Source: Alphaproteobacteria bacterium | GTDB taxonomy: Bacteria > Pseudomonadota > Alphaproteobacteria > Thalassobaculales > Thalassobaculaceae | Assembly (NCBI GenBank): GCA_024742605.1 | Contig: JANSYC010000031.1 | Location: forward strand, 1 to 48,455 | Length of the DNA: 48,455 bases | Direction: 5' to 3' | Shown here: in pieces, positions 43,041-46,892 of the stretch | Position numbering within the stretch: the first letter of the stretch is position 1 | Layout: every line of letters starts with the position of its first letter | The notes under the pieces: generated by a model | Database searches by the model: none | What the model was told of the DNA's origin: nothing | The model's input: the letters and a program-made list of their open reading frames with translations, nothing else | Program-made: the position numbers and the translations under genes

Positions 43041-43706
43041 CTATTCGAGGGCCTGGCGAAGCGCCGCACCCGCCGCCAGCGGGGCCAGGGGAATCGCCGC
43101 CGCCAGCATGGCGGACAGCATCAGCAGATGGACCCTGATCGGCAATCCGTTGGCCGCCGCGTCGATCGCCAAGGTGCCGAAGATCAGAACCGGGATGGTC
43201 AGCGGCAGCACGATCAGGGCGACCAGCACGCCGGCGCGCCGCGCACCCACCACCAACGCCGCGCCGACCGTGCCGAACAGGCTGACGATCGGGGTGCCCA
43301 GAACGAAGCCCAGAATGAGCGCCCCATAGGCCTCGGTGTTCAGATTCAGGGTGATCGCCAGCAACGGGGCCAGGACGATCATCGGCAGCCCGGTGGTCAG
43401 CCAATGCGCCAGGGCCTTGGCCAGGGCCACCACGGCGAGGGGCAAGCCAGACAACGCCAACTGGTCGAGCCCGCCATCCTCCGCGTCCTGTTGAAACAAT
43501 CGGTCGAAGGACAGCATGGCCGCCAGCAACGCGGTCACCCAAAGCACGGCGGGCGCGATCTCGGCGAGTTGGCCCGGCGTCGGGCCGAGCCCGAGCGGGA
43601 ACAGAACCACGACCACCACGAAGAAAGAGACGGTCATCGCGAGATCCGCGCCCTGGCGGCGCGCAAGCGTCAGATCACGGGACATGATCGCCCAGAACCG
43701 GCCCAT
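43041..43706 (-). CDS. ccmB: Heme exporter protein CcmB
   Basis: CcmB is the second membrane subunit of the CcmAB(C) ABC complex that drives release of CcmE-heme. It is 221 aa, six helices, starting MGRFWAIMSRDLTLARRQGAD, with the FDRLFQQDAEDGGLDQLALSG region that contacts CcmA. The ATG at 43706 overlaps the ccmA stop by one base (TGATG), which fixes the start despite an open frame to 43763. Confidence 0.95.
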   Translation of the reverse strand: MGRFWAIMSRDLTLARRQGADLAMTVSFFVVVVVLFPLGLGPTPGQLAEIAPAVLWVTALLAAMLSFDRLFQQDAEDGGLDQLALSGLPLAVVALAKALAHWLTTGLPMIVLAPLLAITLNLNTEAYGALILGFVLGTPIVSLFGTVGAALVVGARRAGVLVALIVLPLTIPVLIFGTLAIDAAANGLPIRVHLLMLSAMLAAAIPLAPLAAGAALRQALE

Positions 43707-44404
43707 CACGCGACCCCCCAGCCGTCGCCGAGATCGGACAGGGACGCGGTCTTGCGGGCGCATGTTGCCGGATCGAGATCGGTCACCCGTGCCCCGAGGT
43801 CAAGGGCGGTGTGGGTTGCCGCGACAACCATGCCGCCGACGGCAAGATGTGCGGCAATCGCCCCTTCCAGGGCCGTGACAGAGGCTGTGTCCAGACCAAC
43901 CGTCGGCTCGTCCAGCAACCACAGGGGCGCGTCCGAGGCCAAGACCCCAGCAAGAGCCGTGCGGCGGCGCTGTCCCGAAGACAGCCAGCCTGCCGGAAGA
44001 TCGATCAGGGACGTGATGTTGAGGCTCTCGAATGCTCGCGCCAAGGCCGCAGTCCGCGTCGATCCCTCGATGCCGCGCAGACGCAACTGAAACGCCGTGT
44101 TTTCGCCAGCCGACAAGGTCGACTTGAGGCTGTCGGAATGCCCAAGAAACGCCAGCCGCCGAGCATGGCCCTCGGGATCTTCCCGGACCGGGGCCCGGCC
44201 CCACCGCAGCTCACCGCCGGTGGGCCTCAGCAGCCCGGCCATGACACGGATCAAGCTGCTTTTGCCGCTTCCGTTCGGGCCAGCCAGACGAAGGGCTGTC
44301 CCCGCTGAGACGGAAAACGACAGACCGGCGAAGACCGCACGTCCGCCGCGCACGACGGCGAGATCGTCGCCTGCAAAGGGTCCTGACTCGAATGAACGCT
44401 CCAT
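43706..44404 (-). CDS. ccmA: Heme exporter ATP-binding protein CcmA
   Basis: A 232-aa ABC ATPase: Walker A GPNGSGKSSL near residue 40, signature LSSGQRRRTAL near 138, and Walker B LWLLDEPTVGLD. With CcmB and CcmC it uses ATP to free heme-loaded CcmE. It is the first gene of the nine-gene ccm operon. The ATG at 44404 has GAGG a few bases upstream; a TATAGA box lies close to the start, so the leader may be very short, but no clear -35 element was found. Confidence 0.95.
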   Translation of the reverse strand: MERSFESGPFAGDDLAVVRGGRAVFAGLSFSVSAGTALRLAGPNGSGKSSLIRVMAGLLRPTGGELRWGRAPVREDPEGHARRLAFLGHSDSLKSTLSAGENTAFQLRLRGIEGSTRTAALARAFESLNITSLIDLPAGWLSSGQRRRTALAGVLASDAPLWLLDEPTVGLDTASVTALEGAIAAHLAVGGMVVAATHTALDLGARVTDLDPATCARKTASLSDLGDGWGVA

Positions 44405-44777
44405 GCCGCCTCTATATCCGAGGCGGCGGGCGCGGGCGAGGCCGGAAAACCGTGTCTGTTAAAAAGGGAAGTTAGAAGCGGCGCCGCCTGCGGGGGGGAG
44501 GGGAGGTACGGCGCCGCTTCCGTTCGGCGGTTTCCCGCCGGGCTAAAGAGCTGGCACGCTCCCGCCATGGTCAAGAGATGGGTACATTCGTGCGCAATTT
44601 CGAGTCTTTTGGGCGACTGCGACACCCGGTCACATTAGAGCGGTTCTTACCTCCAGAAACTCCTAGAGTCCCAATGGTTCCCGGATCGAAACAGGCTATT
44701 CGCAACATGATCCGAGCGGCTTGCTTGGCGCGTGCAGCCACGTGGTCTAACGTGCGTCGTCTTGGGAGGACAATGAA
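44405..44777. other. 373-bp divergent intergenic region between ccmA and the CoA-transferase gene
   Basis: This is the longest gap in the window. It holds a 12-bp perfect inverted repeat (44475-44520), a second small hairpin (44525-44540, CGGCGG/CCGCCG) and, near the CoA-transferase gene, a weak promoter-like pair TTGGCG (44725) and TAACGT (44748) 17 bp apart. The open frame at 44578-44808 has no family character and I do not call it a gene. I see no tRNA or known riboswitch. Confidence 0.6.
44475..44520. repeat. 12-bp perfect inverted repeat with G-rich loop
   Basis: GAAGCGGCGCCG (44475-44486) and CGGCGCCGCTTC (44509-44520) pair perfectly around a 22-base loop rich in G (GCGGGGGGGAGGGGAGG). 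It lies 71 bases upstream of the ccmA start. On the minus strand a TTTTT run follows about ten bases after the stem, too far for a standard terminator. It may be an RNA structure in the ccm leader or a protein site. Confidence 0.5.
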
Positions 44778-45974
44778 ATGGCGTTTCAACCCGCATCCGA
44801 CGCTCTGAAGCATATTACCGTGCTGGATCTGACCCGTGTGCGATCCGGGCCGACCTGCGTCCGTCAGCTCGCCGACTGGGGTGCCAACGTTCTGAAGGTC
44901 GAGATGCCGGAGGCGATGGAAGCCGGCAATCAGATGGGCGGCAAGCGCCATGGCTCCGACTTTCAGAACCTGCACCGCAACAAGCGCTCCGTGACCCTGA
45001 ATCTGAAGGACCCGGAGGGTGTGGCGGTTCTGAAGCGGCTGGCCGAGAAGGCCGATGTGGTGGTCGAGAATTTTCGTCCCGATGTGAAGACCCGGCTGGG
45101 GATCGACTACGAGGCCCTGTCGGCGGTCAATCCGGGCATCGTCTACGCCTCGATCTCCGGGTTCGGCCAGGACGGCCCCTATGCCAAGCGTCCGGGGTTC
45201 GATCAGATCGCGCAAGGCATGGGCGGCCTGATGTCGATCACCGGACTGCCCGGGCAGGGTCCGGTGCGCGCCGGCATTCCGCTGGCCGATCTGACCGCCG
45301 GTCTGTTCGCCGCCCTCGGCATCATGGTGGCGCTGCTGGAGCGAACCCAGTCAGGCAAGGGCCAATGGCTCCACACGTCCCTGCTCCAGGCGCAGGCCTT
45401 CATGCTCGATTTCCAGGGTGCCCGCTGGACCATGGACGGGGACGTCCCGCAGCAGGCCGGCAACAATCACCCGACCAGCATCCCGACCGGTGTGTTCAAG
45501 ACCTCGGACGGCCATATCAACATCGCGGTGTCCGGCAACGTCATGTGGAAGCGGTTCTGCCAATCCATCGGGCGCGAAGATCTGATCGAGCATCCGAGCT
45601 ACGCAACCGGTGAGGCCCGCTCGAAGAACCGGAATGATTTGAACGCCATCATCGAGGAGGCGACCAAGACCCGGAGTTCCGAGGATTGGGTGAGCCTGTT
45701 CAACGAGAACGGCGTGCCCAGCGGGCCGATCAATACGATCGACAAGACGTTCCAGGATCCGCAGATGCAGCATCTGGGGATGGCGCGCACGGTCCATTCG
45801 CCCAATGTCGGTCGCGACATCACCCTGGTCGGCCAGCCCGTCACGCTGAGCCGCACCCCTAGCGACATCGTCCGACACCCGCCGGATACCGGCGAGAACA
45901 GCGACGAGATCCTGACCGAATTCGGCTACACCGCGGACGAGATATCCGATCTGCGCGGCCGCGGCGTGGTCTAG
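44778..45974 (+). CDS. CaiB/BaiF (class III) CoA-transferase
   Basis: A 398-aa class III CoA-transferase that moves CoA between carboxylic acids. The family start ITVLDLTRVRSGPTCVRQLADWGANVLKVE appears in altered form, and the catalytic aspartate is Asp171 in IPLADLTAGLFA. It also has GFGQDGPYAKRPGFDQIAQ and the C-terminal GVPSGPINTI. The ATG at 44778 has GGGAGG upstream. The usual GP in LxGPxxxxLLAD is RSGPTCVRQLAD here. A crotonase-family gene follows 59 bp later, so the pair may handle one acyl-CoA route; the acid is unknown. Confidence 0.92.
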   Translation: MAFQPASDALKHITVLDLTRVRSGPTCVRQLADWGANVLKVEMPEAMEAGNQMGGKRHGSDFQNLHRNKRSVTLNLKDPEGVAVLKRLAEKADVVVENFRPDVKTRLGIDYEALSAVNPGIVYASISGFGQDGPYAKRPGFDQIAQGMGGLMSITGLPGQGPVRAGIPLADLTAGLFAALGIMVALLERTQSGKGQWLHTSLLQAQAFMLDFQGARWTMDGDVPQQAGNNHPTSIPTGVFKTSDGHINIAVSGNVMWKRFCQSIGREDLIEHPSYATGEARSKNRNDLNAIIEEATKTRSSEDWVSLFNENGVPSGPINTIDKTFQDPQMQHLGMARTVHSPNVGRDITLVGQPVTLSRTPSDIVRHPPDTGENSDEILTEFGYTADEISDLRGRGVV

Positions 45975-46033: not shown

Positions 46034-46846
46034 ATGGCTATCGAAGACATTTCCCCCGCCGCCGATCAACCGGTGATCATCGAGAAGCGCGGCATGGTCG
46101 GCGTCGTCACCTTCAACAACCCGGCCAAGCACAATGCCATGTCGCTGGACATGTGGGTTGGCGCCCGCGAGGCGATCGCCACTTTCTCCGACGATGACGA
46201 CATCCGCTGCGTCGTGCTGACCGGAGCCGGTGACAAGGCCTTCGTGGCCGGCGCGGATATCTCGAAATTCGAGAAAGAGCGCTCCTCGGTCGACCATATC
46301 GAGGTGTACAATCAGGCGGTCTCGGATTTCCACGACACCGTGCAGGGCCTGACCAAGCCGACCATCGGCCGGATCAACGGCTACTGCATCGGCGGCGGTC
46401 TGGCGATCGCGCTCGATTGCGACATCCGGATCGCGTCCGACGACAGTCGGTTCGCGGTGCCCGCCGCCAAGCTCGGGATCGGCTATGCCTTCGACGGCGT
46501 GCGCCGGCTTTACGACATCGTCGGCCCGCAGTTCGTGGCGGAGATCTTCTACACCGCCCGTCAGTTCGACGCCGAGGAGGCCCGGATCATGGGCTTGGTG
46601 AACCGGGTTGTTCCCAAGGCCGAGCTCGACGATGTGGTCTGGCCGCTGGCCGAGCGGATCGCCGGCAACGCGCCGCTCTCGGTTCAGGCGGTCAAGGCGT
46701 CGCTGATCGAGTTGGCGAAGCCCCAGGGCGACTGGGACCTCTCCAAGCCGGATGTGGCCGTGCGCAAATGCTTCGGCAGCACCGACTACAAGGAAGGCCG
46801 CACCGCCTTCATGGAAAAGCGGAAGCCTAACTTCACCGGGAACTGA
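46034..46846 (+). CDS. Crotonase-family protein (annotated-type enoyl-CoA hydratase, catalytic Glu absent)
   Basis: A 270-aa crotonase-fold protein. The oxyanion-hole sequences are present: FVAGADISKF near residue 70 and NGYCIGGGLAIALDCDIRIAS near 115. The two glutamates of true enoyl-CoA hydratase are missing: Ala124 and Ala144 stand at those places (GGGLAIA, VPAAKLG). The reaction is therefore probably not simple hydration and may be isomerisation, decarboxylation or thioester hydrolysis. It is downstream of the CoA-transferase gene on the same strand. The stop is followed by a long hairpin. Confidence 0.87.
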   Translation: MAIEDISPAADQPVIIEKRGMVGVVTFNNPAKHNAMSLDMWVGAREAIATFSDDDDIRCVVLTGAGDKAFVAGADISKFEKERSSVDHIEVYNQAVSDFHDTVQGLTKPTIGRINGYCIGGGLAIALDCDIRIASDDSRFAVPAAKLGIGYAFDGVRRLYDIVGPQFVAEIFYTARQFDAEEARIMGLVNRVVPKAELDDVVWPLAERIAGNAPLSVQAVKASLIELAKPQGDWDLSKPDVAVRKCFGSTDYKEGRTAFMEKRKPNFTGN

Positions 46847-46856
46847 GCAAATCCGG

Positions 46857-46892
46857 TTGAAGAGCCGGTCAGGAGACGAACCGGCTCTTCAA
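46857..46892. terminator. 13-bp hairpin between the convergent crotonase and membrane-protein genes
   Basis: A perfect 13-bp stem (46857-46869 with 46880-46892) and a 10-base loop start 11 bases after the crotonase stop. The stem includes the last codons and stop of the convergent membrane protein gene. No T run follows on either strand, so it may act with Rho or as a transcript 3' end stabiliser. Confidence 0.45.

Follow-up and report, generated by a model that had tools for sequence, protein, structure and literature searches.

In Helicobacter pylori, the small RNA (sRNA) RepG is described as pairing with a G-repeat in the tlpB leader through the C/U-rich loop of its terminator hairpin (PMC8295292). 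AbcR2 of Sinorhizobium meliloti is reported to be about 114 nt long, with two anti-Shine-Dalgarno (aSD) motifs and an RpoH1 promoter (PMC8844928), and the published RpoH1 consensus is CTTGAA-N15-16-CCTATAT (PMC8844928, PMC4843759). The CcsR RNAs are described with an RpoHI/RpoHII promoter (PMC10253847) and the ar14 RNAs with CCUCCUCCC in three hairpins (PMC10746234). According to its description, GsrN of Caulobacter is driven by SigT/EcfG, pairs with G-rich mRNA through a C-rich 5' loop and activates katG (PMC5869019).

The locus studied here lies in the gap 44405-44777 of the window (the whole stretch of DNA analysed, 48,455 nt), between a CoA-transferase family III gene on the plus strand and ccmA-ccmB-ccmC on the minus strand. 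A hairpin in this gap is, with moderate confidence, read as the 3' end of an independent minus-strand candidate sRNA, probably with an RpoH-type promoter and acting in trans through its terminator loop. The features are as follows.

43706-44404, minus strand: ccmA, the downstream neighbour, outside the RNA gene (TIGR01189, 189.1 bits, cut-off 131.6)
44411-44416, minus strand: TATAGA, the putative ccmA -10 box, at 6 nt from the ATG
44461-44568, minus strand: putative sRNA gene spanning about 105 nt (family homologues, promoter-like element, hairpins; predicted ends, within several nt)
44461-44473, minus strand: interrupted U-rich tail UAACUUCCCUUUUU, as read from the sequence
44474-44521, minus strand: terminator-like hairpin SL3, which holds the 12-bp inverted repeat (arms 100% complementary; pair changes on both sides)
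44487-44508, minus strand: C-rich loop UACCUCCCCUCCCCCCCGCAGG, proposed seed (CCUCCCC in 18 of 18 loci; mostly unpaired)
44525-44540, minus strand: hairpin SL2, CGGCGG-GAAA-CCGCCG (C-G here, U-A in the sister species)
44541-44566, minus strand: hairpin SL1, from the fold (in the homologous SL1 of L044 and L045, one pair changed on both sides)
44576-44604, minus strand: promoter-like element CTCGAAA-N15-CCCATCT of the RpoH type (homologous element in 18 of 18 loci)
44778-45974, plus strand: CoA-transferase family III (CaiB/BaiF-type), the divergent neighbour (PF02515, 396.7 bits)

The perfect inverted repeat and hairpin SL3

The perfect 12-bp inverted repeat named in the original prediction was found: its arms, GAAGCGGCGCCG (44475-44486) and CGGCGCCGCTTC (44509-44520), are 100% complementary around a 22-nt loop. 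The loop had been given as G7-A-G4-A-GG, which is correct on the plus strand though it omits the flanking loop bases (CCTGCGGGGGGGAGGGGAGGTA in full). Perfect 12-bp repeats with loops of 3-40 nt occurred twice in the 48-kb window (44475-44520 and 46857-46892), against an expected mean of 0.1 per dinucleotide shuffle of the whole window (20 shuffles). When only the 373-bp gap 44405-44777 was shuffled, such a repeat arose in 1 of 2000 cases. The repeat at 44475-44520 is therefore real and not due to chance. The second one lies directly after the enoyl-CoA hydratase gene (46034-46846) and is probably its ordinary terminator.

The segment 44470-44525 folded at -27.8 kcal/mol on the minus strand (z -4.2, matched by 0 of 200 shuffles) and at -30.3 kcal/mol on the plus strand (z -2.2, matched by 4 of 200). 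The hairpin was absent from the output of a generic terminator scan of the window, in which loop size is limited to 3-8 nt. Because the 3' arm enters UUCUUU or CCUUUU in most relatives, the hairpin is terminator-like and the RNA appears to be read from the C-rich strand, contrary to the earlier impression that it does not look like a normal terminator. One point against this reading is that the U-tract of the candidate terminator is interrupted in this genome.

The apparent transcription of the C-rich strand also weakens the G-quadruplex suggested for the plus strand. A DNA-level element there, whether a G-quadruplex or a protein site serving as barrier or operator, is very improbable. The G7-A-G4-A-GG run is present and each arm contains the palindrome GCGGCGCCGC, but this palindrome is lost in four g12 loci (GCGGCATCGC) in which the RNA pairing is kept, and L051 is without the long runs.

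Conservation of the candidate RNA and its promoter-like element

The comparison started from the ccmA loci of relatives, where the same hairpin precedes ccmA on the ccm-sense strand. From 10 loci, a covariance model was built for this hairpin and run on 36 genomes of the same family (in the NCBI taxonomy, Nisaea stands within Thalassobaculaceae). One strong copy per genome (E <= 1.9e-7) was obtained in 18 of the 36. A nineteenth match, in G011, was weak (E 1.9e-4) and its loop lacks CCUCCC; the other 17 genomes, which include genera g7, g8, g9 and g10 and two 1.5-Mb genomes, gave nothing at E <= 0.001. One of these 17, G006 (locus L017), keeps the promoter and the upstream hairpins, whereas its terminator hairpin lacks the 3' arm; deletion or decay, or else an assembly error, may account for this.

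Among 385 genomes of the class, there were only 3 strong matches, all from the same family. Matches outside the family were all weak (best E 6.2e-5) and were rejected as homologues, their sequences being mostly ordinary terminators. A pattern scan of an 84,980-species collection gave 95 matches, and the promoter regular expression, which does not take the CCTATAT form of three Nisaea records, was met in 6, all assigned to this family. Neither the window segment nor ten homologous loci matched Rfam 15 at the gathering score; RF00510 at 44493-44566 on the plus strand (20.1 bits, cut-off 45) was taken as chance. In the literature searched, no paper combined 'Nisaea' and 'sRNA'.

In relatives the candidate RNA would be about 100-145 nt long, and the homologous SL3 is its last hairpin on the minus, ccm-sense strand. 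Folds placed two further hairpins upstream of SL3, or three in Nisaea-type loci; the predicted fold of the four g12 loci is different and includes an enclosing helix, and the upstream hairpins vary between genera. The original prediction had proposed comparing this gap in relatives for covariation in the stem, and that comparison found the stem kept, with few compensatory changes. In the SL3 alignment of 10 loci, 98.3% of 120 cells were paired, versus at most 73.3% in slid versions, and 2 of the 12 pairs changed on both sides; the covariation score was reached by 1 of 500 shuffles and the count of both-side changes by 69 of 500. For the Nisaea-type RNA, a both-side change affected one of 33 pairs (42 of 500 shuffles attained the score), and three pairs changed in this way between L044 and L045. 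Hence, compensatory changes in the stems appear few but present, and the covariation is thin.

Similar ATG frames in this genome and its sister could suggest an mRNA for a small protein that is read through the hairpin region. Such an mRNA is extremely improbable. No ATG occurs in 6 of the 18 RNAs, and in three others any ATG falls within the final few nt; the remaining frames differ. Given the six RNAs without ATG, a small protein was rejected as the shared function.

All 18 loci carry CTCGA or CTCGC followed by CCCATAT, CCTATAT or a near form, with a spacer of 16 counted from CTCGAA (15 in L043). Seventeen of them lie within 3 mismatches of the RpoH1 consensus, compared with 3.4% of 991 random stretches of the window. 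The element of this genome has 3 mismatches to CTTGAA-N16-CCTATAT, five Nisaea-type loci and L047 have 1, and L050 has 4, which 16% of random stretches also attain. Every one of the 18 loci has C as its third -35 base, where the consensus has T. As the 18 loci are orthologues, these promoter counts are not independent and come close to one observation. No site in this genome other than this element matches CTYGAAA-N15-CCCATNT exactly. Allowing a single mismatch adds 11 sites, and the reversed pattern, used as a control, gave 1 site.

Heat-shock genes were inspected as controls. In nine of the 18 RNA-bearing genomes, 11 of 26 stretches upstream of hsp20 were within 3 mismatches of the RpoH1 consensus, and none of nine clpB upstream stretches (180 nt) was. 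Twelve groES upstream regions, less L100, which proved to be coding sequence, showed repeats behind TTGACA-like -35 boxes. We take these repeats to be CIRCE-like; groES was therefore uninformative on RpoH and was dropped as a control. G000 has three Cpn10 genes, of which the two examined (L091, L095) carry such CIRCE-like repeats. The RpoH assignment thus rests on hsp20 and the consensus, and the element is likely to be an RpoH-type promoter.

With its own conserved promoter-like element and its upstream hairpins, the locus differs from what would be expected of a plain terminator, be it of a short stress transcript or of readthrough between the divergent units, which would leave the RNA functionless. 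The stem GCGGCGCC is indeed frequent in ordinary terminators, both in other alphaproteobacteria and elsewhere. But no annotated gene ends at the hairpin, and CCUCCCC is retained in its long loop in all 18 loci. We regard a plain terminator as unlikely.

Position relative to ccmA

The original prediction had also suggested an RNA element on the minus transcript that controls ccm expression. Its first half stands, as a minus-strand RNA structure is kept in relatives with some compensatory changes; the ccm control does not. A ccm operon leader would require the minus transcript to pass the hairpin into ccmA, so that the fold controls ccm, for example by attenuation. In its favour, ccmA is the next, co-oriented gene in 16 of 18 genomes (10 identified by ccmA search, L046 by Pfam and five by eye). 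However, the other two genomes break the invariable association with ccmA that a shared transcript would demand: there the downstream gene is YgjP-like (L045) or a thiolase (L050), and the CoA-transferase gene is still divergent. In three g3 genomes, enoyl-CoA hydratase takes the divergent position. Directly downstream of the RNA, L050 carries a palindromic repeat, CGTCATCCTGAGG...CCTCAGGATGACG.

Promoter-like boxes between the hairpin and ccmA were seen by eye in 15 of the 16 ccmA-linked loci and likewise speak against a leader. In g1, g3, g5 and g12 the box is TATAGA, upstream of the ccmA ATG at a distance of exactly 6 nt in 10 of 10 loci; in the Nisaea-type loci it is TTGAGG-N16-CTAT, present in 5 of 5 (both by eye). 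No such box was seen by eye in the sixteenth locus, L044, and a strict sigma-70 scan of the hairpin-ccmA stretch reported nothing. Given these boxes, ccmA probably has a transcription start of its own, and in g1, g3, g5 and g12 it would be nearly leaderless. Taken with the two genomes without ccmA, the boxes therefore predict a ccmA start downstream of 44475, which the original prediction had named as evidence against itself. Hence SL3 probably does not act as a switch for the cytochrome-assembly (ccm) genes, and a ccm leader is quite improbable. A separate hairpin, GCCGCCTC/GAGGCGGC at 44406-44430, adjoins the ccmA start and overlaps TATAGA; in g3 relatives this stretch is not a hairpin.

The C-rich loop and comparison with known small RNAs

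The loop of SL3 is C-rich and of varying length, and it contains CCUCCCC, an anti-Shine-Dalgarno sequence, in all 18 loci. The best CCUCCCC copy had an unpaired probability of at least 0.80 in 17 loci and of 0.61 in L037. In the RNA of this genome the mean for the best copy was 0.92; the CCU of the first CCUCCCC pairs with AGG beside the 3' arm, and that copy averaged 0.63. By computation, the Shine-Dalgarno complement expected of a trans-acting aSD RNA is thus present in 18 of 18 loci and mostly unpaired. Because CCUCCCC stays invariant while the length of the loop changes, the proposed seed lends itself to direct testing.

Sites of the form GGGGAGG-N3-9-ATG numbered 64, 73, 63 and 105 in four genomes; the reversed pattern, as a control, gave 18, 12, 11 and 23. 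The loop thus has dozens of ribosome-binding sites as potential pairing partners. None of the neighbours examined as targets stood out. The caiB Shine-Dalgarno GGGAGGA complements CCUCCC in g1 and g12 and fits poorly in L033, L050 and the g3 loci; caiB was rejected as a target, with a pairing energy in the window of -17.5 kcal/mol, outside the best 5% of random stretches (-19.5).

In the mechanism that we favour for the candidate sRNA, its own promoter of the RpoH (heat-shock sigma) type would drive the RNA from about 44568 to 44461. Two hairpins would be followed by SL3 as the 3' terminator hairpin, and the unpaired C-rich terminator loop (core CCUCCCC) would pair with GGGGAGG and GGGAGG ribosome-binding sites. 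Under stress, such pairing would lower translation of the bound mRNAs. From the sequence we infer transcription, RpoH dependence, the position of the 3' end and mRNA binding. Conservation in one family, the fixed spacing of the promoter-like element, the hairpins with their few compensatory changes, the invariant accessible seed and the independence from ccmA in two genomes were computed.

A broader idea is put forward tentatively, and we would sooner doubt it than accept it: an undescribed Thalassobaculaceae-type sRNA family acting as a heat-shock-sigma-driven global translation damper, with one copy, one loop and dozens of GGGGAGG sites. If this is true, a single C-tract loop does the job of the multi-loop cuckoo RNAs of other alphaproteobacteria. 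If transcribed, the RNA would represent an sRNA family whose window segment and ten loci find no Rfam 15 match at the gathering score.

Like ar14/NfeR1 and CcsR, the cuckoo RNAs, as they are described (PMC10746234, PMC7143759, PMC10253847), the candidate has a C-rich aSD motif in a hairpin loop; unlike the published ar14 and CcsR RNAs, it has the motif in one loop and one copy per genome. The stems of ar14 are described as variable, whereas the terminator stem of the candidate is well conserved. A DUF1127 gene is described alongside CcsR; the identified neighbours of the candidate are CoA-transferase, enoyl-CoA hydratase, ccmA, YgjP-like and thiolase genes.

Membership in ar14 or CcsR was rejected, since CCUCCUCCC occurs in 0 of 18 candidate RNAs and no Rfam score exceeded the gathering cut-off (65.3 for RF02791, 58.8 for RF02344). 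The CcsR1 score was 15.4 bits in the window; of ten RNA-bearing loci, three gave matches, of 21.4 bits or less. The CcsR1 search of 36 genomes gave 0 above the cut-off and 7 at E <= 0.01; only the G044 match (25.6 bits) overlaps the candidate RNA, and the weak matches L233-L238 were judged unrelated by eye. In the loci searched, the ar14 model matched only L064, which is not one of the candidate RNAs. This locus (1501-1553; G128, a distant alphaproteobacterium) has the terminator loop CUCCCCCUCCCCCC on a different stem and scored 25.8 bits for ar14 (cut-off 58.8).

With AbcR2, as published, the candidate shares an alphaproteobacterial origin, an aSD motif and an RpoH1-type promoter (predicted here), but AbcR2 is described with two aSD motifs and its hairpins differ. 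The described GsrN likewise combines a stress-sigma promoter (predicted for the candidate) with a C-rich loop directed at G-rich mRNA; it differs in being under the general stress sigma (SigT/EcfG), in carrying its C-tract in the 5' loop and in activating katG. As in the account of RepG, the proposed pairing site lies in the terminator loop and is aimed at G-rich mRNA. RepG, however, comes from an unrelated phylum and has the tlpB leader G-repeat as its target. The best explanation is that the candidate would work like RepG and the alphaproteobacterial aSD RNAs (AbcR2, NfeR1/ar14, CcsR), and it is a conserved small RNA gene candidate. If transcribed, it would place the RepG-like C-rich terminator-loop design in alphaproteobacteria under a stress-type promoter.
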